Below, in pieces: positions 1,603 to 20,303 of a stretch of 35,746 bases of DNA (the first letter of the stretch is position 1; the number at the start of each line of letters is the position of its first letter). Origin of the DNA: a virus; IMG/VR virus record IMGVR_UViG_3300022744_000072, positions 1 through 35,746 of that record; one strand, written 5' to 3'. The translations under genes were made by a program, and so were the position numbers. A model generated the notes under the pieces. It was not told where the DNA came from and did not search any database. It was given only the letters and a program-made list of their open reading frames with translations.

Positions 1603-2586
1603 GTGCGGGGACTAAGTTCTGCAATGATTCCGGAGTTTGATGGGGTGTCCTGGGGGGATCCGGTGGACCTCCCGATCGAGGCTGCGACTCTCCCGTGCTG
1701 GGCGAGTGCGCGCCCGGATCGGCATGGGGAGCTGGTTTCCAGCCTGGCGGAGCACGGTCAGCGCGAGCCCGTCTACGTGCGCGAGCGCGTGGCCTTCCCG
1801 GACTCGGCGGCGACCGTCTACGAGCTCGTGGACGGGGAGCGGCGCGTTGCGGGCGCTCGCGAGCTCGGGTGGCCGACGATTCGCGCGCGCATCGTCCAGG
1901 CGCCTGCCGGCGACCGTGGTTACGCGCTGGCGGTCGCGTCCGTCATGCACGCGCGCGGGGACCGGATCCTGGCCTCGGAGGCTTCTCGCGCGCTCGTGCG
2001 CGTCGCATCGATGCCCGAGCACCGGGATCAGAATCTGGCGCAGGTCGCGCTCAGTCTGGGCCGGATCTTCGGAAGATCTCCCACGTGGGTCAAAGACCTG
2101 CTCGCGATGGAGCGCGCAGCACCCGCTGTGCGGTCGATGCTCGACCGAAAGGCGTTTCCGCGCGCGCTGGTAACGTACCTCGCGCGGATTGCCGATCACG
2201 ATCTGCAGGTCAGCTACGCGAAGCGGATCGTGTCCACCGGAATGAACATTCACGCGGCGCGAAACTTTGTCTGCGCGCGCGTTGACGCTCTCAAGATCGA
2301 CGGCGTGGCGCCGGACGTTGCGCGCAACCCTGCCAAGCCACGCGCAAAGCGCCCGAAGAAGGTCGACCTAACGGAAGCTCGCCCCGCGAACGTGCTCGAC
2401 GTGATCAGACATATCAGCGACTACGCGGACAGCGTGCTCGACATGCCGCAGGCCACCCTTACCGCGGCATTCGCTGACGATCCCGGATCCGCTCGCCTCG
2501 CCTGCACGCGCATCGGCGAATCGATCGAGGCACTCGGGATGCTCCGGCAGGCGCTACAGCGACGAGCAGATAAGGCCGCGCAGTGA
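1603..2586 (+). CDS. ParB/Spo0J-like DNA-binding protein
   Basis: The N-terminal part (about residues 20-100) is a ParB nucleotide-binding domain, with the key box DGERRVAGARELGW at residues 77-90, the region that binds CTP in ParB clamps. The middle part (about 110-230) is helical and fits the ParB DNA-binding domain, with the helix-turn-helix likely around SLGRIFGRSPTWVKDLLAMERA. A basic linker (KPRAKRPKKVD) and a helical C-terminal part follow. In plasmids such proteins spread from parS sites in DNA segregation; in phages they may instead regulate transcription or genome maintenance. No ParA gene and no obvious parS palindrome are present in the window. I chose GTG 1603 because of gaggggtg upstream; ATG 1624 is an alternative. 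Confidence 0.8.
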   Translation: MRGLSSAMIPEFDGVSWGDPVDLPIEAATLPCWASARPDRHGELVSSLAEHGQREPVYVRERVAFPDSAATVYELVDGERRVAGARELGWPTIRARIVQAPAGDRGYALAVASVMHARGDRILASEASRALVRVASMPEHRDQNLAQVALSLGRIFGRSPTWVKDLLAMERAAPAVRSMLDRKAFPRALVTYLARIADHDLQVSYAKRIVSTGMNIHAARNFVCARVDALKIDGVAPDVARNPAKPRAKRPKKVDLTEARPANVLDVIRHISDYADSVLDMPQATLTAAFADDPGSARLACTRIGESIEALGMLRQALQRRADKAAQ

Positions 2587-4496: not shown

Positions 4497-7202
4497 ATGT
4501 ACGATCGCGCCGAATACGATAGCGAGGAGCTCGCGCTAATCGCGGATGCAGCGGCGAAGATCGGCAGGCAGCTACTAGACACGGGAAAGAAGGCGAAGGA
4601 GCACGAGGATCGGTGGGCGAAGTACCACGACGATCCCGTCGGCTTTTTCGTTGACGTGCTCGGCGTGACTCCGTGGGAAGCCGAAGGCGCGGAGACACAG
4701 AGCCAAGCCGATCTCATTCGCGCCATCGGGATTGGCGATCGCGTGGCCTGCAAGAGCGGGCACAAGATCGGGAAGATGCTTCACGATGACACACCGGTTC
4801 CAACGCCTTCCGGGTGGAGGCGACATGGCGACCTCAAGATCGGAGACCAGGTCTTCGACGAGAGCGGACGACCATGCAACGTCGTGAACGTCATCCCGTG
4901 GTCTAACAGGCCGCTCATGCGCGTCACATTCGAGGATGGGACGTCCATAGACGCCGACGAAAGGCACGAGTGGGTTGTCCATTCCAGGGAGAGCCGGAAG
5001 CGCACCTACAAGCCTGCTCAGACGCTGGAGACGAGGCAGCTAGCGCAAGCCTTGACCGTGCCCAATGGGAGTAACCCCGACGGCTCTCCGCGCAGAGTCG
5101 CTAACTGGACTGTCGATCTTCCGGGAGCAATCGAGCTCCCGACCGCGGACTTGCCGCTTGATCCGTACCTACTCGGCGTTTGGCTTGGAGACGGAAACTC
5201 GCGCGGCGCAGCGATGACGACAGCGGATGCGGAGATTCAGGGCGCGTTTGAACGTGCGGGGTTTGACACACAGCGGAAGGAGTCAAAGGGGGCTGCCTGG
5301 GCGTTCGGAATCACGTCCCGTGGCAGAGGCGAGCAAAACAGGTTCTCCCAGATTCTCAGAAGCCTCGGAGTCCACTCAAACAAGCACGTCCCGCGCGAGT
5401 ACCTTTGGGCATCGGCGGATCAGCGGCTGGCGCTGCTGCAAGGGCTGATGGACACCGACGGGACGTGCAGCGAAAAAGGGATCGCGTGCTTCACGAACAC
5501 CAACGAGCAAATCGCGAGGTCGGTGCAGTTCCTGGCCCGATCGCTGGGGATCAAGGCGCGCATTTCGGAGGGTCGTGCGAAGCTGAACGGCAGAGACTGC
5601 GGACCTGTGTGGGACGTGATTTGGTGCTCTCCGCACCGCGTGTTTAGGCTCGCGCGCAAGGCTTGCAGGCTGCGAACGGCGTGGAAGCACAAGGCCAACG
5701 CGCATAAGCGCATGGCGATCGTAAGCGTCGAGCCGCTTGCGGAACGAGTCAGCGCGCAGTGCATCACGGTGGACTCTCCGTCCCACCTGTACCTCGCCGG
5801 AGAGGCGATGCTGCCCACGCACAACAGCATTACAGCAGTAGGCTGTGCGCTCTGGTTCGTCTGCACACGCAAAAAAGCACGCGTTTTGCTCACTGCGCCA
5901 ACGTTCGCGCAGGTCAAGAACATCCTGTGGAAAGAGCTGGCGAACGTCTATCGCGATCGCCGCTTAGAGGCGAAACTAGGCGCGCCGCTCGCGCTTGATC
6001 CGTCGACTGGTCTCAGGCTTCCAAACGGGAACGAAATCATCGGGATCAGCACGAAGACCACCGAGAACCTCGCGGGCATCTCGGCGCCGGAGATGCTGTT
6101 CATCGTCGACGAAGCGTCAGGTTTCCCCGACGATCTTTGGGAGGTACTCAGCAAGGGAAACGCGGCCGGTGGCGTCAAGATCTTTTGCATCTCGAACCCA
6201 ACCCGCACAAGCGGCTGGTTTTTCCGCATCTTTCGCGAGCGCGCGAAGTTCTCTCGCTGGCAGTGCTTCACGATTTCCAGCGAAAACACGCCGAACGCAC
6301 GCAGCGGAAAGCGCCTAGTTCCTGGTCTCGCAACGCGGGATTTCATCGAGGAAATCAGGACAGAGTGCGGCGCTGAGTGGCGAGACGATCCCGTTTACAT
6401 GGTTCGAATCCGTGGCGAGTTCCCGCCGCAAGGATCGGACGCAGTGATCTCGCTGCACGCAGTGGAGCGCGCTACGTCGCGGTGGGAGACCACGTCACCG
6501 CCCGATCCTGAGCTCTACGAGCTGACGATCGGGGTCGACGTGGGACGCTACGGAACAGATCCAAGCGTGGCGCAGCCTGTACGCGGCTCCTACGCGTACG
6601 AACCTCGCGAGGTCTATCGAGCGGACGGGCCGACCGTCGCAAACATGGCGCTCGCGATGGCGCGAGAGCTGCGGCAAGGCGATGAAGTGATCCGCATGGT
6701 CGTGGACGGGATCGGCGTCGGCGCCTCCGTAGTCGACGCGCTCAAGTACAGCGAAGACGTCCAGGAAGGTCGCGTGTATTTGGTCGATCTGAACGTGGGC
6801 GAAGCTGCCGACGAACAGGCGATGAAAAAGACGCCTGACGGCAAGGCAAAGAAGCCAGTGCACAGCTACGAGCGACTGCGCGATCAGCTTTGGTTTGGTG
6901 TCGCGGAGTGGCTCAAGTCTCCGCAGGCCGCGCTGCCGAATCAAGAGCGGCTCGGCGCAGAGTTGCTCGTGGCCACGTACGCATTTACCGCGAACGGGAA
7001 GATCAAGGTGCTGTCCAAGGATCTAATGCGCGCCTTGCTCGATGGCCGATCGCCGGACTACGCGGACGCGCTAGCAATGGCCGTCTACCGCGGAAAGCGC
7101 GGCAAGCGTATCGAGTACAGTTACGATGGTGCGCTTGACCTCCGGCACAATCCAGCACCGGAGGATGGCGCGTGGGATGACAGCGGCTGGGGGCCGGGAT
7201 GA
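4497..7202 (+). CDS. terL: Terminase large subunit, interrupted by an intein
   Basis: TerL is the ATP-driven motor and nuclease that packs DNA into the prohead. The 901-residue precursor contains a 350-residue intein (residues 94-443), leaving a 551-residue mature enzyme. The Walker A loop SGHKIGK ends at residue 93 and its Ser resumes at 444, so the intein splits the ATP-binding loop and must leave for activity. Walker B is MLFIVDEAS with Asp538 and catalytic Glu539; the coupling motif is SNPT at 566-569. The RNase H-type nuclease shows GVDVGRYGTD (Asp681), VVDGIGVG (Asp737) and YADALAMA (Asp857). The sequence belongs to the Mu gp28-like/terminase_6 type. The next gene starts within its stop codon. 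Confidence 0.93.
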   Translation: MYDRAEYDSEELALIADAAAKIGRQLLDTGKKAKEHEDRWAKYHDDPVGFFVDVLGVTPWEAEGAETQSQADLIRAIGIGDRVACKSGHKIGKMLHDDTPVPTPSGWRRHGDLKIGDQVFDESGRPCNVVNVIPWSNRPLMRVTFEDGTSIDADERHEWVVHSRESRKRTYKPAQTLETRQLAQALTVPNGSNPDGSPRRVANWTVDLPGAIELPTADLPLDPYLLGVWLGDGNSRGAAMTTADAEIQGAFERAGFDTQRKESKGAAWAFGITSRGRGEQNRFSQILRSLGVHSNKHVPREYLWASADQRLALLQGLMDTDGTCSEKGIACFTNTNEQIARSVQFLARSLGIKARISEGRAKLNGRDCGPVWDVIWCSPHRVFRLARKACRLRTAWKHKANAHKRMAIVSVEPLAERVSAQCITVDSPSHLYLAGEAMLPTHNSITAVGCALWFVCTRKKARVLLTAPTFAQVKNILWKELANVYRDRRLEAKLGAPLALDPSTGLRLPNGNEIIGISTKTTENLAGISAPEMLFIVDEASGFPDDLWEVLSKGNAAGGVKIFCISNPTRTSGWFFRIFRERAKFSRWQCFTISSENTPNARSGKRLVPGLATRDFIEEIRTECGAEWRDDPVYMVRIRGEFPPQGSDAVISLHAVERATSRWETTSPPDPELYELTIGVDVGRYGTDPSVAQPVRGSYAYEPREVYRADGPTVANMALAMARELRQGDEVIRMVVDGIGVGASVVDALKYSEDVQEGRVYLVDLNVGEAADEQAMKKTPDGKAKKPVHSYERLRDQLWFGVAEWLKSPQAALPNQERLGAELLVATYAFTANGKIKVLSKDLMRALLDGRSPDYADALAMAVYRGKRGKRIEYSYDGALDLRHNPAPEDGAWDDSGWGPG
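4776..5825 (+). other. Class 3 intein with LAGLIDADG endonuclease, in the TerL Walker A loop
   Basis: The intein begins with Met (not Cys or Ser) right after the Walker A Lys and ends with PTHN before Ser+1. Block A is MLHDDTPVPTPSGW. Block B is GTSIDADERHEW, with His64 and Trp66 (intein numbering). Block F is AQCITV with Cys329, and block G is PTHN with Thr348. Trp in B, Cys in F and Thr before the penultimate His form the WCT triad that defines class 3 inteins, in which the block F Cys is the first nucleophile. The middle part has two LAGLIDADG motifs, LLGVWLGDG near precursor residue 224 and LLQGLMDTDG near 313, both keeping the acidic residue, so homing activity looks intact. Confidence 0.9.
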
Positions 7203-7421: not shown

Positions 7422-7874
7422 GTGGCTGAGGTGTACCGCTTCGGCGCGTGCGAGCTCGACGCAACCAACGCACGCCTGACGCGCTGCGGGCAGCTCGTGC
7501 GCGTCCGCCCTCTCCCGCTAGACGTGCTCGTGACGCTGGCGCGTTCCGCGCGCCTGGTGACCACTGGGGAGCTGCTGGATCTGCACTGGCCGCAATCTGC
7601 CGGCGCCGAGGCGACGCTACACGCGACGGTCAACGCGGCGAGGCGCGCGATAGGCCAGCTACCAGGCCAGCCGGGGCCGCTAGAGTCGGTGCATGGTCGC
7701 GGGTACCAGCTCATCGGCGTGGCCCGCACAGAGTCGACTGTGAGCGCTGCCAGGCGTGCCCGCTGGCGTGCCTACGCGGAGCGCGCGGCATCGTCCGGGA
7801 TGGACCCGCGCCACTGCCTTGAGGTGGCGGACGCGCTACTCGCGGGCGAGGTCTCGCGGTACGGCGAGCCGTAG
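7422..7874 (+). CDS. OmpR/PhoB-type winged-helix DNA-binding protein
   Basis: Residues about 4-100 match a complete Trans_reg_C winged helix: YRFGACELDATNARLTRCGQ as the N-terminal sheet, LPLDVLVTLARSARLVTTGE as the first helices, ATLHATVNAARRAIGQLPG as the recognition region, and VHGRGYQLIG as the wing. There is no receiver domain, so it is not part of a two-component pair. The C-terminal 50 residues are Arg/Ala-rich and helical. In its place between the packaging genes and the portal gene it could act as a phage late-gene regulator. Two bases after its stop begins the first copy of the 20-base repeat, a possible target site. Both points are inference. Confidence 0.8.
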   Translation: MAEVYRFGACELDATNARLTRCGQLVRVRPLPLDVLVTLARSARLVTTGELLDLHWPQSAGAEATLHATVNAARRAIGQLPGQPGPLESVHGRGYQLIGVARTESTVSAARRARWRAYAERAASSGMDPRHCLEVADALLAGEVSRYGEP

Positions 7875-11301: not shown

Positions 11302-14300
11302 GTGCGCCGCGGCATAGCTGTACAGCTCGCGTACGGCTCAGGCCGCGGGCTTCTCGTGTCTGACTCCGGATCGCTGGCGCTTACCAACGATTTGATCGCA
11401 GACACGAACACGTCCGCGATCTCGTCTGCAGTGGGCGGCGCTGTGCTGGTCGACATGATCAGCAACCCAAGCCCGCGCAACATCGGCGCGGCTCCGCCAG
11501 CGATGCTAACGGGCGCGTTCGCGTTTACTTGGACGCCTTCCGTTGCGGACTCGGCGCTCGCAGATAACGACTACGTGCTCGTGAACTGGGGCCGGTCAAC
11601 GACCAGCCTCTATGTGCAGCGCGCAGGCGTGACCAACCTGGTCATTTACGACGACACGACTGGAGCCATCGCGTTTGCCTATGGCGTTTCGTTTGCTGCT
11701 GGTGTCACGGTCTCGATCTCGGTAGACCTCGCTGCGCTCACGATTTCGCTATCTGGGTTCACGGCTGGAAACGGAACGTATGCGATAGCCGCAGGTTTCA
11801 GCCCTGCCGATGGCGATGGGACGATCGACGTAGGACGCTACTTTGACGGTGCGTATCAGTCGGGCGGAACTTACGGAAACTTCACGGCAGGCGGAAGCAC
11901 AGGCGTCGGAGGAACGTCGAGCGCAGCGGGCACGCTGTCCAGTGCTGCGGCGGCCTCGACGATCGATGGATCCGCGTCCGGCCTCGCGTCCGGCAGTGCG
12001 TCTCTCTCCGCGCTTGGCACCCTCTCCGGCTCCGTAGCAGGCACGAGCTCTCCGTCCGGCGCTGCAGGCGCTCTCGCCTCTGCCAGCGGCTCCACGGGCG
12101 GCGTAGGTGCTGCAGCGGGCACGCTCGCTGCGTCTGCCCTGCTCTCTGCGACGTCACGAGGTAGAGCGCTCGGGCGCGAGCCGCGTTCTGCGTTCATTTA
12201 CTCTTACCCGCTCCCCGGCGGAATGCGGGACGCGTACGATCGGATCATCGTCGAGCCAGGCCACCCGCACACGGTCGCGGGAACCGGCGCGGAGCTGGTC
12301 GCCTACCTGTCTGTCGGCGAGGTCTCGGACACGAGCCCGGACGTCGGCAACATGCTTCCGGCGTGGATAATCGGCCGAAATGAAGGCTGGGGCTCGTCCA
12401 TCATGGACTTGTCCAGCGCTGCGTATCGTGCAGATCTCGTGGGACGCAGAGCCGCGGCGCTGTACGCGCTCGGCTATCGCTCTCTGTTCCTTGACGTCCT
12501 CGATTCGTTCCAGCTCGTGATCCTTGATGAGCCTGGACGCGCATTGCAGCGCGCTGGGCTCGTGGCTGTGATCCAGGCGCTTCGCGCGACGTTTCCCACG
12601 ATCCTAATCAATCGCGGGTTTGACGTCGTTGCGTACGTTGCTCCGTACGTTCAGGGAATGGTCGCGGAATCGTTGTTCCGCACGTACACGAGCGGCGCCT
12701 ACGCAGCGAGCACGCAGAACGACAAAGATTGGTTACTGCCGAAGCTGCTGAGTGCGCGCGACACGTACGGATTGCCCGTCACGGTGATCGACTACGTTGC
12801 GCCAGGTGATACGGCCACCGCGCAAGGCGCGATCGATTCGATCACGGCGCTCGGGTTCACCGCGTACGTGTCAGACGTCGCGCTTTCGACTGCCGGACTG
12901 GGCGGGATCGGCGCGCTCAGTATTCCGGGCACTGGCACAACGGCTTCGGCATCCGGTGCGCTGTCCGGCTCGAGCTCTGCGGCATCGTCGGCGAGCTCGA
13001 CAGCATCGGCTGCTGGGGCTCTTTCCGCGAGCGCGCTAGGCACGAGCTCTGCGACTGCTTCCACTTCCTCCGCAGGCTCGCTCGCTGCGACGTCTGCGGG
13101 CACGTCTGCGGCGTCTTCCGTGGCAACCGGGCGCGGCTCGCTCAGTGGGTCGGCGGCTGGCTCTGCGGCGCCTTCGGCAGCGGTCACAGCGCGTGGCGAC
13201 CTTGCCGGATCCGTGGCCGCGACGGGCGCGGCAAGCGCCGCGGTGTTCGCGCGCGCAGCGCTGGCCGGCGCGATCGCCGGTGCGGCTTCGGCTTCGGCAG
13301 CGGTCACAGCGCGTGGCGCGCTGTCAGGATCGTCTGGCGCTGTTGCCTCTGCGTCCGCATCACTGCTCGCACCCGGAACGCTCGCCGGACAAGCGCAAGG
13401 CGCCTCGCTGCTCACTGTGAGCGCGCTTGAATCTGGGATCCCGTTTCCTCCGCCGCACGCGCTTTCCGCCGAATATCGCAGCGTATGGCGCCAAGACTTC
13501 ACCACGCTGTCTGCGCTGTCTGTGTCCGCGAACGGACCTTGCGGAAACGGCGCTGGACTGACGACGTGGATGGCCCATAAGCCAGGCTACGGCGAATGGT
13601 TCCTTTTCAACGATCCATCGGAAAACCTCCACCCGTTCTCTCTTGATGGCCACGAGCTCACGATCCGCGTCCAGAAAGACGGCGCGCTTGCGGCGTACGG
13701 CGGATACACCGGCGGTCTGCTTTCGTCTGCAGATCATCATGGCGACGGTTTCACGCAGAAATACGGCTACTTCGAAGCCTGTATGCGCGTTCCAGGGGGG
13801 GCGAATACGTGGCCGTCCTTCTGGCTTCTCGGCGTCGAAAACATGGCCGTTCCAGGAACGCCTATTGCGGAGCTCGACGTCACAGAGCTCTACGGAAACG
13901 CCGGAGCTGGGCCAGGTTTCTCGCCTCCGGGAAACCCGAGCATTTCGATCAGCACGTGGCACAAGTGGTCAACTCCGCACGAGTTCGATCAGCACATTGT
14001 CGACGCGTCGCTTCCACCGTTTTCCACGGATCTATCGGCCGGATTCCACACTTTCGGCGTCGACGTTGGACCCACGGAAATCAAGTGGTACCTGGACCGT
14101 CAACTCTACTGGACGACGCCGGCATATCCCGAGTCGCGGCGTCCGCTTGCGGTGTTGCTCAATCTCGCGCTTGGAGGTGGCAATTACACCAACGCAACGA
14201 ATGACGGTTACGACTGGTCTCTCACTCCAGACCCGACCGATCTCAAAGTAAAGTACGTCGCCGTTTGGGCGAGTCCTGACAGCCCGAACTACACAGACGT

Positions 14301-17118
14301 TCGCACGGCTGGCGCGACTGGCGTAGGCCGCGCTACGGCATCGCTGTTTGCTGACGCATCGGTGTCTGGCTCGTCTGGCGCTTCATCTCTCGCGCGCCTG
14401 TACGTCACCGATGCTTCGTACGTCTACGATGACGGCGGCGCGCTGGTCTACGATGACAACGGCGAGCCTGTCACGATCGGTGTGACCACGGGTGCGCTGG
14501 CGTCGTCGTCCGCCGGAACGTCGCTCGCGCTCGCATCTGCGAGCGGGTCCGCTTCCCTTTCAGGTGCGTCGGGAGGCGTTGCGCTGGCGCTCGCCGTGGT
14601 CTCCGCCCGCGGAGACTTGGCCGCAACATCCGTGGCGACGGGCGCGGCATCCTCCCAGATGGCCGCATCTGGGGCGCTTTCCGCGGCCAGCGGCGCAGCG
14701 TCCACGGCTACCGCTGTGGCGACTGGGCGCGGCGCGCTCGCTGCGACACTCGGAGCGGCCGGAGCTGCGTCGGCTCTGCTGTCCGCGGTCGGTGCGCTCG
14801 CAGTGTCTGCGCTTGCCGGAACCGCGTCTGCGTCTGGCTCGCTGGTCGCGCGTGGCGCACTCGCGGGCACTTCCGGCGCGACGTCAGGCGCGTCCGCTGT
14901 CGGGTTTGCGCAGGCCACGGGCGGCGCCCTGGCCTCCGGCACGAGCGCTGCGTCCGCCACGATCTTCGCGCTATCCGCCGGCACGTGCTCTGCGTCCGGC
15001 ATCGCATCGGCAGCGGCCACGCTCGTAGGTCTGCGTGCGGCGTCGGGCTCGTCTGCCGGAGCGGCTAGTAGCAGCGGCGCTTCGCTCGCGGGCGCAGGCT
15101 TGCTCGGCGGTAGCGCGCTTGCGCTCGCCGGTTCGAGCGCAAGCCTTGGCGCTTCGGGCGCGTTGGCCGCATCTGCCGCAGGATCCGCGTCCGCATCTGC
15201 GTCTGCAGGGTTGTCTGGTGCGCTAGCGTGTGTCTCTGCCGGCATTGCATCTGCGTCCGCGAGCATGACGGCGCGCGGCGCACTGCTCGGGTCTGTCAGT
15301 GGTTCGAGTTCTGCACAGGTCGCTTCCGGATCTTCGATCGGAACGCTTGCGACGGGCGCAGGTTCCACGATCCTGCTCGACCTCGCCACGAATCCCGCGC
15401 CGCATCACTTCGCGGTGTGTCCTCCCGCGATTCTCTCGGGGCGCTGGTCGTTCACGTGGACGCCTGCAGTTGCGGATACAGCGCTCGCGCCAAACGATTA
15501 CGTGCTCGTCTCGTGGGGACCGTCAGACACGAGTCTCTACGTCCAGCGCAGCGCGGTCACGAACCTCGGCCTGTACGATCAGACGACGGGCACATGGGCA
15601 TGGGTTACTGGCGTAAGCTTCTCCGCTGGACAGCCCGTCACGATCGCGACGGACACGCAGGCGCAGCAGGTCACGCTATCTGGCTTCGCGTCGGGGAATG
15701 GCACGTACGCAACGACCGCGTTTTCACCTGCCGATGGCGATGGATCGGTCGACGTCGGCCAGTATTTCGACGGCAACTACGCGAGCGGCGGAACGTTCTC
15801 GAACTTCACTGCGCCGGGCTACGGCGTCGGTGGGACGAGCGCGGTCACTGGTACGCTCACGGTTGGCGCTCAGGTCGTACTGATTGCCGGCAACGCGTCC
15901 GGCATGGGTTACGCGACTGCGGCGCCAGCGCTCACGATGGCCGGCTATCTGGTCGGCACGTCGAGCGCATATGGCCGCGGTGAAGAGTCTGTAACCCTGA
16001 GTGGGCTCGGGGCGCTGGCTGCTGCTGCGTCTGGCACGGGCACGGCGCAGGCAACCGGGATCGCACTGCAGACCGGAGGCGCTCTCGCGGTAGGCACGTC
16101 GAGCGCTTTCGCGGCCATCGGCGCGCGCGTGGAGATTTCGGCTGCTGCGTCTGGCACGAGCGCTGCGTCCGCGCTGATTCTCGCTCAGATCGCGGTATAC
16201 GGCGCAGCTGCCGGAAGCGCGGCCGTGCCTGCTAGCCTGTACGGTCTGGGCTCGCTAGCGGGCGTTCTCGCGTCGCAGTCTGGCGCCACTGCGTCCCCGA
16301 GCGCGCGCGGGCAGCTCGCCGGCACGTCCGCTGGCGGAGGCCTCGCTATCGCGGCCACTGGTGGGTCTGTGCCTGGCGTGGGCACGGTTGCCGGCATGAG
16401 CTCCGCCGCTGCCGCGCTGGTCGGCTCCGGCGATCTCGTGTCGGTGGTCGCAGGCTCGAGCTCTGCGTCTGTCGCCGGTAGCGGCGCTGTGCCGGCGCAG
16501 GGGGCCGTCTCGGGCACGGGCGCGGCCTCTGCGTCGGTCTCTGGCCGCGGGGCGCTCCTGGCCAGCGTGGGAGGCGCTGGCGACGCATCGCTCGCCGGCA
16601 CGGTTGGAGTCGTGGTCTCTGGCGCCGCTGGCGCGAGCTCCGCTGCGTCCGGCGTGATCGTCGGTGTGGGCGCTGTCGCCGGAGCCGCACGAGGCAAGGC
16701 GCTGGCACTGGCCGCGACGCTGGGGGGTGTCGCCGGAGCTGTCGAGATCGCGGGATCCGCCGGCGCATCTGGCGAGCTCTCGGCACTGGCCGATCTCTCG
16801 GGTGAGATCTCGGGCGCCTCCGTGGCGCATGCGTCCGGCGCTTCCGCGGCACTGGCGACGTCGACGGCTTCGGGCAGCGCGTCAGCGATCGCTGAGTTGA
16901 TCGCGCTCGGTGGCGTCGCTGCCGCGGCGCACGGCACAGGGGCTGCGGCTGCCACCGCGCAAGGATCGTTCGAAGCGTCCGGTTTGTCGTCCGCTCACGC
17001 AGTGGCGTGGCTCGAGACACCGCCCGGTGAGCTCTCGTGGGTTCCTGTGTCGATCGAGATCTCGCCAGAGACGATACAGGCAGGCGATTTTGTGATCGCA
17101 GATGAGTTTGCGATCTGA
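11302..17118 (+). CDS. Giant fibre protein with GH114-like and GH16 polysaccharide hydrolase domains
   Basis: This 1938-residue protein is built from alternating modules. Residues about 46-197 and 1354-1505 are two copies of one beta-rich module (each with DYVLV.WG...TSLYVQR and FSPADGDG). Residues about 297-535 resemble GH114, with VAYLSVGEVSD and FLDVLDSFQ. Residues about 720-996 are a GH16 domain with the catalytic ELDVTE at 857-862 (Glu857, Asp859, Glu862). The linkers are Ala/Ser/Gly-rich; one is an exact series of 20-residue repeats (552-709). The whole suggests a tail spike or fibre that cuts host exopolysaccharide. The start GTG has only a weak ribosome site. No frameshift is visible, and the final 30 residues form a non-repetitive tail. 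Confidence 0.8.
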   Translation: MRRGIAVQLAYGSGRGLLVSDSGSLALTNDLIADTNTSAISSAVGGAVLVDMISNPSPRNIGAAPPAMLTGAFAFTWTPSVADSALADNDYVLVNWGRSTTSLYVQRAGVTNLVIYDDTTGAIAFAYGVSFAAGVTVSISVDLAALTISLSGFTAGNGTYAIAAGFSPADGDGTIDVGRYFDGAYQSGGTYGNFTAGGSTGVGGTSSAAGTLSSAAAASTIDGSASGLASGSASLSALGTLSGSVAGTSSPSGAAGALASASGSTGGVGAAAGTLAASALLSATSRGRALGREPRSAFIYSYPLPGGMRDAYDRIIVEPGHPHTVAGTGAELVAYLSVGEVSDTSPDVGNMLPAWIIGRNEGWGSSIMDLSSAAYRADLVGRRAAALYALGYRSLFLDVLDSFQLVILDEPGRALQRAGLVAVIQALRATFPTILINRGFDVVAYVAPYVQGMVAESLFRTYTSGAYAASTQNDKDWLLPKLLSARDTYGLPVTVIDYVAPGDTATAQGAIDSITALGFTAYVSDVALSTAGLGGIGALSIPGTGTTASASGALSGSSSAASSASSTASAAGALSASALGTSSATASTSSAGSLAATSAGTSAASSVATGRGSLSGSAAGSAAPSAAVTARGDLAGSVAATGAASAAVFARAALAGAIAGAASASAAVTARGALSGSSGAVASASASLLAPGTLAGQAQGASLLTVSALESGIPFPPPHALSAEYRSVWRQDFTTLSALSVSANGPCGNGAGLTTWMAHKPGYGEWFLFNDPSENLHPFSLDGHELTIRVQKDGALAAYGGYTGGLLSSADHHGDGFTQKYGYFEACMRVPGGANTWPSFWLLGVENMAVPGTPIAELDVTELYGNAGAGPGFSPPGNPSISISTWHKWSTPHEFDQHIVDASLPPFSTDLSAGFHTFGVDVGPTEIKWYLDRQLYWTTPAYPESRRPLAVLLNLALGGGNYTNATNDGYDWSLTPDPTDLKVKYVAVWASPDSPNYTDVRTAGATGVGRATASLFADASVSGSSGASSLARLYVTDASYVYDDGGALVYDDNGEPVTIGVTTGALASSSAGTSLALASASGSASLSGASGGVALALAVVSARGDLAATSVATGAASSQMAASGALSAASGAASTATAVATGRGALAATLGAAGAASALLSAVGALAVSALAGTASASGSLVARGALAGTSGATSGASAVGFAQATGGALASGTSAASATIFALSAGTCSASGIASAAATLVGLRAASGSSAGAASSSGASLAGAGLLGGSALALAGSSASLGASGALAASAAGSASASASAGLSGALACVSAGIASASASMTARGALLGSVSGSSSAQVASGSSIGTLATGAGSTILLDLATNPAPHHFAVCPPAILSGRWSFTWTPAVADTALAPNDYVLVSWGPSDTSLYVQRSAVTNLGLYDQTTGTWAWVTGVSFSAGQPVTIATDTQAQQVTLSGFASGNGTYATTAFSPADGDGSVDVGQYFDGNYASGGTFSNFTAPGYGVGGTSAVTGTLTVGAQVVLIAGNASGMGYATAAPALTMAGYLVGTSSAYGRGEESVTLSGLGALAAAASGTGTAQATGIALQTGGALAVGTSSAFAAIGARVEISAAASGTSAASALILAQIAVYGAAAGSAAVPASLYGLGSLAGVLASQSGATASPSARGQLAGTSAGGGLAIAATGGSVPGVGTVAGMSSAAAALVGSGDLVSVVAGSSSASVAGSGAVPAQGAVSGTGAASASVSGRGALLASVGGAGDASLAGTVGVVVSGAAGASSAASGVIVGVGAVAGAARGKALALAATLGGVAGAVEIAGSAGASGELSALADLSGEISGASVAHASGASAALATSTASGSASAIAELIALGGVAAAAHGTGAAAATAQGSFEASGLSSAHAVAWLETPPGELSWVPVSIEISPETIQAGDFVIADEFAI
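11437..11892 (+). repeat. Duplicated fibre module, N-terminal copy
   Basis: This codes about 152 residues that are repeated at 15361-15819. Shared landmarks include TWTP followed by ADSALADNDYVLVNWG, TSLYVQRAGVTNL, and FSPADGDGTIDVGRYFDG. The two copies differ at many positions, so the duplication is old. The fold is probably a lectin-like beta sandwich. Confidence 0.8.
12955..13428 (+). repeat. Tandem 20-residue (60-base) Ala/Ser/Gly repeats in the fibre
   Basis: Seven consecutive units of exactly 20 residues (60 bases) begin at 12955, each starting with G-x-L-[SA] (one unit starts with A), such as GALSGSSSAASSASSTASAA and GSLSGSAAGSAAPSAAVTAR. A partial eighth unit ends at 13428. A 27-base stretch at 13172-13198 recurs exactly at 13292-13318, two units later, which indicates recent unit exchange. 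Looser units of similar length follow in 14491-15335. Confidence 0.85.
15361..15819 (+). repeat. Duplicated fibre module, C-terminal copy
   Basis: This is the second copy of the module seen at 11437-11892, with TWTP, ADTALAPNDYVLVSWG, TSLYVQRSAVTNL and FSPADGDGSVDVGQYFDG. It is followed by the last Ala/Gly-rich stretch of the protein. The copy closes the span that contains both glycosidase domains. Confidence 0.8.
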
Positions 17119-18000: not shown

Positions 18001-19650
18001 GTGGTGGCTGACAAAGACGTAAGACCCGGACCCGTTCCCGCTGACGTGCTCGCGTATTGGCGCGCGAAGAAGCTGTCTCCGCGCTTCGACTGGCGCGACG
18101 TGTGGCTAGAGGAGCACGATCTAGAGTTCACCGCGGCAAAGATCATGCGCCGCGACGTTCTTGCAGCGATGAAAAACGAGCTAGATCGGGCGATCGCCGA
18201 TGGCGTTCCGTTCGATCGCTGGGCGAAGCAGGTAGAGCCGCGATTCCGTGAGATGGGATGGTGGGCGGAGCACGAGGTGATTGACCCTGAGACCGGCGCG
18301 CGCGCCACGGTAGACCCACCCTCTCGGCTTCGGCGGATCTACGATACAAACATCCGAATGGCGCGCGCTGTTGGCCAGTACGACCGCGCGCAGAAGAACA
18401 AGCGCTTTCGGCCCTACGTGCTGTATCAGGTCGGACCGTCTCACCGACATCGGCCGGAGCACTTGGCGCTGCACGGCGTAATGGTACACATTGACGATCC
18501 GTTTTGGTCGCATGCATGGCCGCCAAATGGATGGGGCTGCTTCTTGCCTGGAACGGTAGTCACGGGCGACTTTGTAGGCGGATCAAAAGCCTGGTATTCT
18601 GGGGAGGCCATCGAGATCAAGACTGATGGCGGCGCCTCGCTCTCCGTTACGCCCAATCACCCCATACTTACCTCGCGCGGATGGGTTGCGGCGGGGTCTC
18701 TCAAGGTAGGCGACGACTGCGTTAGCAACAGCGGCGAAGTCGTACTCGTACGCGCATCCGGTTCCCCACAGTCTCCCGGAGGGGCAGTACGCAATCAGGA
18801 TGTCCCAGCCTGCGTGGAGGATGTATTCAAGGCGCTCTCTGCGCATCGACGTGGAACGGCACAGATCTCCCCTTTGGACTTCCACGGCGAGGCGTCTCGG
18901 TTCGTGGGCCAAGTCGACGTTGTGGGGACCTATGTTGAGCTGGCTGACCAGCGCGAATCCACTCGTCTTCAGTTCTCGGGAGAGAGCTCGTTCCCGGCTC
19001 CGTATTCCAGTCTGCAGCTCGTAGACGCGAGCGGCTTGGTAGTGCCGCTCCTCCACCCCAGCAGTGCGGCCCGTAGCCGCAGAAAAGGCTGGCCTGGCGA
19101 CTTCTATCCGCTGGTCTCGCGTGAGCTTCCCGAATCTGTTGTATGCGGCTTCGGATCTGCCGCGCAAAGGAATGTTGTGTCTGTGGAGAAGGCGGGCAAC
19201 GGCAGTTCTGGACACTCCAAGTTCCTTGGAGAGCTCCAAGATAGAGGATCCGGCAACGTATCTCTTGATAAGGTGGTCAGTGTTAGGCGGTTCCCATATC
19301 GCGGACATGTGTACGACCTCGAAACTAGATCTGGATGGCTTTTGGCCAACGGAATTGCGGCTAGCAACTGCAAGTGCTTCGTTCAGGTTCTCAGCGCGCG
19401 CGAAGCGGACCGCATCGAGTCGGAAGGCATCCAGGCGCCCGATCCCGAGCCGATCCTAGACGACGAGGGTAACCCCACCGGGCACGTGGTGGATCGGCGC
19501 GTGCAGGTTCGCCGGTCTGCTCCTGTGCTGCCCCTCGTTCCGTGGGAAAACAAGCGCGCGGGAACAATCGAGCTCGTGCCGCAGGGCATTGATCCAGGAT
19601 TCCACTACACCCCTGGTGAGGGTCGCGCGCGCGCGCTCAAGTACCCGTGA
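18001..19650 (+). CDS. Mu gpF-like head morphogenesis protein, interrupted by an intein
   Basis: gpF-type proteins are minor head proteins bound to the portal that take part in head assembly. The 549-residue precursor contains a 277-residue intein (residues 180-456), leaving a 272-residue product. The N-extein has the family landmarks DWRDVWLEEHDLEFTAAKIM and a conserved HRHRPEHLALHGVMVHIDD then WPPNGWG. After splicing, NGWG joins CKCFVQVLSAREADRIE, restoring the NGWGC.C motif of the family. The intein therefore sits at the most conserved point of the protein. The start is GTG with gggga upstream. The gene ends by overlapping the start of the free-standing Hint gene. Confidence 0.9.
   Translation: MVADKDVRPGPVPADVLAYWRAKKLSPRFDWRDVWLEEHDLEFTAAKIMRRDVLAAMKNELDRAIADGVPFDRWAKQVEPRFREMGWWAEHEVIDPETGARATVDPPSRLRRIYDTNIRMARAVGQYDRAQKNKRFRPYVLYQVGPSHRHRPEHLALHGVMVHIDDPFWSHAWPPNGWGCFLPGTVVTGDFVGGSKAWYSGEAIEIKTDGGASLSVTPNHPILTSRGWVAAGSLKVGDDCVSNSGEVVLVRASGSPQSPGGAVRNQDVPACVEDVFKALSAHRRGTAQISPLDFHGEASRFVGQVDVVGTYVELADQRESTRLQFSGESSFPAPYSSLQLVDASGLVVPLLHPSSAARSRRKGWPGDFYPLVSRELPESVVCGFGSAAQRNVVSVEKAGNGSSGHSKFLGELQDRGSGNVSLDKVVSVRRFPYRGHVYDLETRSGWLLANGIAASNCKCFVQVLSAREADRIESEGIQAPDPEPILDDEGNPTGHVVDRRVQVRRSAPVLPLVPWENKRAGTIELVPQGIDPGFHYTPGEGRARALKYP
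18538..19368 (+). other. Intein in the gpF-like protein, with antisense nuclease gene inside it
   Basis: The intein starts with Cys180 (CFLPGTVVTG, block A) and ends with Asn456 before Cys+1 (AASN, block G). Block B is SLSVTPNHPILT with Thr217 and His220; block F is HVYDLETRSGW. It fits a canonical Cys1 intein, except that the penultimate residue is Ser instead of His. No LAGLIDADG or HNH motif is coded on the sense strand. Instead bases 18583-19308 also code an endonuclease on the opposite strand. The middle part contains a DFHGEASRFVGQVDVVG segment that is shared with the next gene. Confidence 0.88.
18583..19308 (-). CDS. Antisense HTH/Vsr-like homing endonuclease inside the intein
   Basis: Read on the minus strand from ATG 19308 to the stop at 18583, this gives 241 residues. 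The N-terminus is a helix-turn-helix, DHLIKRYVAGSSILELSKEL then GVSRTAVARLLHRHNIPLRG and RSEA, as in phage homing endonucleases. The C-terminal half has the Vsr-like (EDxHD) pattern: NVDLA, LAVEV, then RLEYILHAGWDILIAY and VVAYLERPRRNPSA. The usual GGNWH.yGRH stretch after VEV is here RGDLCRSTSM, so the catalytic His residues may be lost. A gagg lies eight bases before the ATG on the minus strand. Its codons are in exact register with the sense intein codons. The gene lies wholly inside the intein, suggesting it drove intein homing. Confidence 0.78.
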   Translation of the reverse strand: MSAIWEPPNTDHLIKRYVAGSSILELSKELGVSRTAVARLLHRHNIPLRGRSEAAYNRFGKLTRDQRIEVARPAFSAATGRTAGVEERHYQAARVYELQTGIRSRERALSRELKTSGFALVSQLNIGPHNVDLAHEPRRLAVEVQRGDLCRSTSMRRERLEYILHAGWDILIAYCPSGRLWGTGCAYEYDFAAVANAVVAYLERPRRNPSARGKYGVIGRNGERGAAISLDLDGLPRIPGF

Positions 19651-20303
19651 GCGTAGCTCCGGAAACGACCTTCACGGGCTGCCTGCGAGGCGCAGCGCGC
19701 GGCATCTACACCGGCCCGGTGCGTACCCTGGTCACCGCTTCGGGCGGCTTGCTGCGGCTCTCTCTGCGCCACCCGATTGCGACGCGTCGCGGATGGGTTG
19801 CCGCGGGCGATCTGAGCACTTCGGACGCTGCGCTCGTGCACGTGGGAGAGCTCGGGCTACCACGCGACCAGCTTCCGCCGTCCGGCGATGAGCTGTGGCG
19901 GACGTGGTCTCTCAGGCACGGCGGATCGTGGCGCTTGTTGGCGCCTAGGCGCGCCTTTCACGGCGAGGGGCGGCGCTTCTACGGGTCAATCGAAGTGGTC
20001 GGCTCCTATCGCCTGCTAGGCACCGCGCGCGTGCGGCACGAGGCGAGGAACTCGGGGGCTCCCGCCGTGGTCTGCTACTCGCGTGCTGTGGGGATGGCGC
20101 ACGTGGCATCGACTGCGATCCTCGCTGTGGGCGACGAGGGTTGGCCGGAGCTCGCGCCAACGCTAATGCGCGGGTCGGATGGGCGCTTCGCGCTGGATCC
20201 GATCGTAGCGATCTACGAGTCGCCTTACGTGGGTACGGTGTACGACGTCGAGGGTGACAGCGGTTGGTGTTGGGCATCTGGCTTCGCGCTGCGTGATTCC
20301 TGA
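19647..20303 (+). CDS. Free-standing Hint (intein-like) protein with almost no extein
   Basis: This 218-residue product aligns over its whole length with the intein of the preceding gene: SVAPETTFTG against CFLPGTVVTG, RHPIATRRGWVAAGDL against NHPILTSRGWVAAGSL, FHGEGRRFYGSIEVVGSY against FHGEASRFVGQVDVVGTY, and VYDVEGDSGW against VYDLETRSGW. It starts Met-Ser, so Ser2 stands at the Cys1 position, and it ends Asp-Ser, standing for Asn and Cys+1. The block B His is kept (His42). It is thus a complete Hint domain with one residue at each end outside it. Its antisense frame has stops (sense CTA at 19857, TCA at 19986, CTA at 20016, CTA at 20163), so no nuclease remains. GTG overlaps the previous stop. 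Confidence 0.8.
   Translation: MSVAPETTFTGCLRGAARGIYTGPVRTLVTASGGLLRLSLRHPIATRRGWVAAGDLSTSDAALVHVGELGLPRDQLPPSGDELWRTWSLRHGGSWRLLAPRRAFHGEGRRFYGSIEVVGSYRLLGTARVRHEARNSGAPAVVCYSRAVGMAHVASTAILAVGDEGWPELAPTLMRGSDGRFALDPIVAIYESPYVGTVYDVEGDSGWCWASGFALRDS

Follow-up and report, generated by a model that had tools for sequence, protein, structure and literature searches.

A putative class 3 intein in the terminase P-loop of an IMG/VR virus and a candidate nuclease gene antisense to a second intein

The virus DNA deposited in IMG/VR as IMGVR_UViG_3300022744_000072 (35,746 bases, analyzed over its whole length and referred to here as the window) carries a terminase large subunit (TerL) gene whose ATP-binding loop is split by a long in-frame insert. 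TerL is encoded at 4497-7202 on the plus strand as a single open frame of 901 amino acids, and the insert spans codons 94-443 (4776-5825, 350 codons, zero stops). Taken as a whole, it is very probably a class 3 intein with an in-frame LAGLIDADG homing endonuclease, lodged in the P-loop of TerL with the invariant Lys on one side and Ser on the other.

Insertion site and intein class

Both flanks of the insert match the terminase large subunit in PHROGs (phrog_36964, 3.6e-40; phrog_2, 3.4e-35). The N-extein (4497-4775, plus strand, 93 amino acids) ends in VACKSGHKIGK, the last seven residues of which (S-G-H-K-I-G-K, 4755-4775, plus strand) are the 5' part of the Walker A motif or P-loop, and the C-extein (5826-7199, plus strand, 458 amino acids) starts with Ser+1 at 5826; these limits are drawn from the reading frame, the PHROGs matches and an alignment with intein-free TerLs. 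When five intein-free TerLs are aligned, the intein falls between the K and the S or T of the P-loop, the column reading SGHKIGK/S in the window (the slash marks the insertion point), SCHGVGKS in vir525, SGQGVGKT in phiEf11 and SSNGVGKS in Amigo, and the host TerL is otherwise intact. This bears out the placement given by an earlier sequence-only reading, which had also proposed a comparison with intein-free alleles. The comparison fixed the site against these five proteins but brought no close allele: a single-sequence scan returned two distant loci only (25-27% identical), intein-free TerLs in phage records reached at most 31.6% identity among the listed matches spanning most of the query, and the nearest ones in the alignment are about 26-32% identical. 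Downstream of the intein, the C-extein carries a Walker B-like FIVDEAS and nuclease motifs.

Around terL, a terminase small subunit gene (232-870) lies near an ORF for a ParB_N-like protein (1603-2586, plus strand; 7e-5, just under the cut-off). A small ORF between terL and the portal gene (7422-7874, plus strand) encodes an OmpR-type winged-helix domain (Trans_reg_C, 2.2e-6), its sole Pfam match.

The insert opens with the non-nucleophilic Met1 (4776-4778, plus strand), in keeping with the lack of Cys or Ser at position 1 in class 3. The solved class 3 DnaB intein 6bs8 aligns directly with residues 4-68 (to just past His-Glu-Trp) and 324-350 (from the Cys to Thr-His-Asn), and Trp66, Cys329 and Thr348-His-Asn350 fall on equivalent residues of that protein. 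Trp66 thereby occupies B:12, two residues past the catalytic block B His64 (His64-Glu65-Trp66, 4965-4973, plus strand), and is the W of the WCT signature. Cys329 (5760-5762, plus strand), the block F nucleophile and the C of WCT, shares its alignment column with the block F Cys in 6bs8 and in 14 relatives, that is, F:4, the placement on which the sequence-only reading had staked its class 3 assignment. Thr348-His349-Asn350 (5817-5825, plus strand) provide the G:5 Thr (the T of WCT), the penultimate His and the cyclising Asn ahead of Ser+1. In an alignment of 15 inteins (the window, two viral contigs and 12 of 13 phage records), the block B His, Cys329, His349 and Asn350 are present in all 15, Trp66 in 14 (Asn in JA-1) and Thr348 in 14 (Ser in Gmala1). 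One sequence, L015, was left out of it: its start is of the Cys1 type, it lacks the block F Cys, and it is not class 3.

The same alignment identifies two LAGLIDADG motifs with their catalytic residues, Asp139 in LLGVWLGDGN (5190-5192, plus strand) and Asp228 in LLQGLMDTDGT (5457-5459, plus strand); the first column holds D in 13 of 15 inteins (N in the viral contig L002 and in Gmala1) and the second in 15 of 15. Together with a Pfam LAGLIDADG_3 match above the curated cut-off (3.6e-11), this agrees with the earlier impression of an apparently complete endonuclease part. NCBIfam gave weak matches to intein-containing host models only.

The same layout recurs among 82 viral loci, namely the best 80 of at least 585 relatives of the TerL intein retrieved by an alignment query of IMG/VR, plus L002 and L003. 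A block F Cys followed by Thr-His-Asn terminates the insert in 82/82, and the +1 residue is Ser in 42 and Thr in 40. Insertion occurs at [GA]K/[ST] in 71 of the 82; many of these sites are P-loop-like, the host gene having been checked by annotation or alignment for the 15 aligned inteins, one of which (CharlieB) sits in a gene annotated as an HNH endonuclease and not in TerL. Among the 15 aligned inteins, the residue found at position 1 may be M, D, A, L, E, Q, G or S; it is A in 47, L in 10, G in 5, Q and R in 4 each, and M, D, C and P in 3 each of the 82 loci, a naive count with starts extrapolated from tblastn and a few off by one or two residues. Met does occupy position 1, as first noted, but it is unremarkable there, because this residue varies across class 3 inteins. 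In this regard, the position 1 residue taken alone would permit class 2; it is nevertheless highly improbable that the insert belongs to class 1 or 2 and simply has an odd first residue, given that it contains the block F Cys, Trp66 and Thr348, each in register with solved class 3 proteins.

An AlphaFold2 model of the intein (pLDDT 92.5, pTM 0.91) superposes on the class 3 structure 6bs8_C with Z 20.8 and an rmsd of 1.3 A over 124 residues, and scores about Z 21 against class 3 mini-inteins generally; the predicted protein thus has a Hint fold like that of the solved class 3 inteins. The model also matches PI-SceI (1ef0_A) with Z 27.5 and 3.3 A over 321 residues at 20% identity, in line with a common two-domain intein-LAGLIDADG architecture, although PI-SceI differs in its class 1 splicing from Cys1. 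In the available text of PMC7664689, the MchDnaB1 intein uses a Cys124-His65-Thr143 triad together with Trp67, which correspond to Cys329, His64, Thr348 and Trp66 of the TerL intein. MchDnaB1 (6rix) and the M. smegmatis DnaB intein (6bs8) have in common with it the Hint fold, the Cys-His-Thr triad and the Trp; unlike it, they are mini-inteins without an endonuclease, hosted by DnaB (PMC7664689, in part).

Proposed splicing route and its alternatives

Work on relatives, applied to these residues, allows us to propose a splicing route. After folding of the TerL precursor, His64 would activate Cys329, itself held with Trp66 and Thr348, for attack on the Lys(-1)-Met1 peptide bond, and a branched thioester would form; the acyl moiety would then move from Cys329 to Ser+1, cyclisation of Asn350 would free the intein, and an O-to-N shift would leave SGHKIGKS with the P-loop intact. 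The intein endonuclease would, in turn, cut an intein-less terL at the uninterrupted P-loop, and repair would copy the intein in. Because the P-loop is split, we infer that the precursor would be unable to bind ATP, and packaging would then depend on prior splicing; the same argument has been made for related TerLs in section 9 of PMC5050341.

A decayed element, in which the motifs are kept while splicing is poor or absent or the endonuclease is dead, would look similar at first sight. Endonuclease decay is met among relatives, as in L002, where the first LAGLIDADG Asp is replaced by Asn, and an intein described as a pseudogene appears in the class 3 literature (PMC3196547, in the part available). 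The TerL intein, in contrast, retains all splicing residues and both Asp, contains no stop or frameshift, diverges from its relative L111 with a third-position bias and sits in an otherwise intact TerL, which makes decay a distinctly unlikely explanation.

We also consider it unlikely, if slightly less so, that splicing is conditional and regulates packaging, TerL staying inactive for as long as phage timing, redox or metal state keeps Cys329 from acting. A single Cys would initiate the reaction within the P-loop of the packaging ATPase, and effects of oxidants, chlorine species and zinc on mycobacterial DnaB splicing are described in those parts of the literature available to us. However, nothing in the TerL intein sequence points to such control, the TerL inteins tested in PMC5050341 spliced readily according to its accessible text, and parasitism accounts equally well for the P-loop position.

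Relatives and mobility of the terminase intein

A tblastn search with the TerL intein matched 755 of 50,697 phage records at E<=1e-5. This number is not a count of class 3 TerL inteins, as it takes in partial matches and inteins from other genes; in 539 of the 755 the match spans 80% or more of the query. Sixty rows sampled down the ranking include helicase inteins and partial matches, and the matching phages infect Mycobacterium, Salmonella, Vibrio, Klebsiella, Pseudomonas, Aeromonas, Escherichia, Gordonia, Bacteroides and other hosts. With this many matching records, the intein reading is not a chance one.

The best phage-record match is the intein of Eureka gp8 (NC_041850), 40.1% identical over the whole intein. 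Like the window intein, it is inserted in a P-loop after K (K/T in Eureka) and has WCT and an in-frame LAGLIDADG domain; unlike it, it has Thr at +1 and Ala at position 1. The host TerLs of the two are about 13% identical over aligned columns. Eureka is a cluster E mycobacteriophage, and its intein is a TerL1-a intein.

The insertion point, between the invariant P-loop Lys and Ser or Thr, is that of TerL1-a, which the available text of PMC5050341 places between the Lys and Thr of the P-loop and describes as having WCT class 3 members. According to the same text, mycobacteriophage inteins are found mainly in TerL, and several TerL inteins have splicing and endonuclease activity (PMC5050341), and the Rak2 and K64-1 TerL inteins are noted in a portion of PMC5259590. 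The unusualness implied by the sequence-only reading is therefore not upheld, as inteins of this class, with this type of endonuclease and at this insertion point, are common and already in print (PMC5050341, in part). The TerL intein is an unexceptional new example of a known minority type, at a site known as a hotspot. It adds one more host lineage to the class 3 inteins with LAGLIDADG domains found at K/S or K/T of divergent terminase P-loops, useful for cataloguing and for choosing new splicing tools, and opens no new question.

The intein is better conserved than its host, as the two inteins nearest to it, those of L111 and L002, show. Between the window and L111 (IMG/VR contig 3300045391_002406), the inteins are 62.6% identical and the C-exteins 32.2%; between the window and L002 the values are 55.7% and 30.1%, and between L111 and L002 the gap is smaller (54.4% vs 41.2%). 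L111 has the same GHKIGK/S site and both LAGLIDADG Asp, but Leu at position 1, and its flanking DNA matches the window at 22/30 bases upstream and 19/30 downstream of the intein. The window and L111 inteins differ at 107, 80 and 198 first, second and third codon positions over 338 codons which, judged by this distribution, is a purifying pattern. That the inteins resemble each other more than their hosts do is expected of a mobile element and agrees with lateral transfer among diverged terL genes, though the intein may instead simply evolve more slowly than TerL. The composition of the intein carries no sign of recent arrival, since its GC and GC3 equal those of the exteins.

The exchange of the first LAGLIDADG Asp for Asn in the L002 copy (1474-2484) suggests decay of the endonuclease. 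A hidden out-of-frame gene within the TerL intein was considered as well and rejected, each of the five other frames containing 4-13 stops.

A second intein with a probable antisense nuclease gene

The window holds a second intein, in a MuF-like minor head protein gene (18001-19650; Phage_Mu_F, 2.1e-15), and the reading frame opposite to it makes this arrangement more unusual than the TerL intein. The intein (18538-19368, plus strand, 277 amino acids) has the class 1 layout of Cys1 and Asn/Cys+1, with boundaries NGWG/Cys1 and HVYDLE...Asn/CKC; its profile matches are weak, both under the cut-off (Intein_splicing, 1.1e-7; intein_Nterm, 2.2e-4). Wholly within it, on the minus strand, lies an ORF of 241 amino acids (18583-19308) for a predicted helix-turn-helix (HTH) protein with a Vsr/I-Bth0305I-like nuclease domain. 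The ORF begins with an ATG (19308) that is complementary to the CAT codon for the His preceding VYDL; a GAGG lies eight bases upstream of this ATG, and the frame extends from there back across intein block B.

The model of the antisense protein (pLDDT 92.2) combines an HTH with a Vsr-like nuclease, and its VIA Z-scores range from 8.8 to 10.1 (Vsr 1cw0, 10.1; 3hrl, 9.2; 3r3p, 8.9). Profile searches matched 3hrl (4e-6) and I-Bth0305I 3r3p (0.014), and a Foldseek search of the model returned no match at E<=0.001, with weak E-values of 0.04-0.23 for Vsr/I-Bth0305I. Pfam MTES_1575 is found in 42 and DUF559 in 18 of 50 antisense relatives; the window copy, at 0.035 for MTES_1575, misses the 0.01 threshold. 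D132 and E143 are invariant across 50 antisense nuclease sequences. On this modeled fold with its conserved D...E pair, the product would be I-Bth0305I/Vsr-like (DUF559-type), and we read the ORF as a putative homing endonuclease gene nested in the intein.

Relatives of the antisense nuclease occur in 101 phage records, including Salmonella, Pseudomonas and Gordonia phages, and in each of the eight records examined, a long gene that is MuF-like or belongs to the head region runs on the strand opposite the relative. Relatives are also encoded in 423 stretches of viral DNA and in 2 contigs from prokaryotes. Scanning with the MuF intein in its sense translation recovered no relatives; they were recovered with the antisense translation and with its alignment.

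Across 83 loci (80 viral ones kept, the 2 prokaryote ones, and L019, whose contig is also that of L034), no stop interrupts the codon-on-codon sense frame in 83/83, the other two sense phases carrying 2-28 stops, and the antisense frame is free of stops in 82. A block F/G-like end, [VI][YF][DN]L...N/[CST], closes 74 of the 83 sense frames. The complement of the codon before the block F motif is ATG in 27, GTG in 8 and TTG in 1 of the 48 non-redundant loci (of 66) where that motif could be placed.

The antisense frame could be a mere shadow of the sense frame, an interpretation that we consider unlikely in view of the confident HTH and Vsr-like model and of features of the DNA. In 15 of 16 close pairs, variation inside the overlap is greater at first than at third codon positions of the sense frame (sense first being antisense third), the exception being L057-L064 with 6 differences in the overlap; outside it, the third position varies most in 16/16. 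These are the 16 of 48 prefiltered pairs that passed the 70-99.5% identity and length filters, and they are not independent, six having L107 in common. Sense Leu/Ser codons that would be antisense stops number 0/2748 inside the overlap vs 554/4722 outside (66 non-redundant loci), a count that is partly circular because the overlap is defined by an open antisense frame. Stretches of equal length outside the overlap are antisense-open in 113/647 cases, and in 2/177 in loci below 55% GC. The substitution patterns of the close pairs support a coding antisense frame. Taken together, we consider it likely that one stretch of DNA specifies a splicing domain on one strand and an HTH-Vsr/I-Bth0305I-like nuclease on the other, and that it represents a widespread family and not a single-genome oddity.

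A literature search over titles and the beginnings of abstracts returned no antisense endonuclease within an intein, from which we claim no absence from print, and none is described in passages of PMC3229294, PMC2988022 and PMC8966425. A preprint on actinobacteriophage inteins with non-canonical architecture may bear on the arrangement. The closest published case, to judge from part of PMC11855218, is the out-of-frame HNH of ShiLan, which differs from the MuF antisense gene in lying on the same strand and not within an intein. If expressed, the antisense nuclease and the MuF intein would form a mobile element of two overlapping antiparallel genes, whose dual-strand coding and homing would be directly testable in the cultured Salmonella, Pseudomonas and Gordonia phages with relatives.

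Directly after the MuF gene lies a stand-alone Hint-like ORF (19647-20303, plus strand) that resembles the MuF intein, with RGWVAAG and FHGE..RF.G stretches in both. Its antisense frame has 4 stops, one perhaps from the sense stop region, and it therefore lacks an intact nuclease; it is perhaps a decayed duplicate of the MuF intein that lost the nuclease. Also in the structural region, an Ala/Ser/Gly-rich protein of 1938 amino acids (11302-17118, plus strand) carries GH114 (5.5e-14) and GH16 (2.1e-7) glycoside hydrolase domains.
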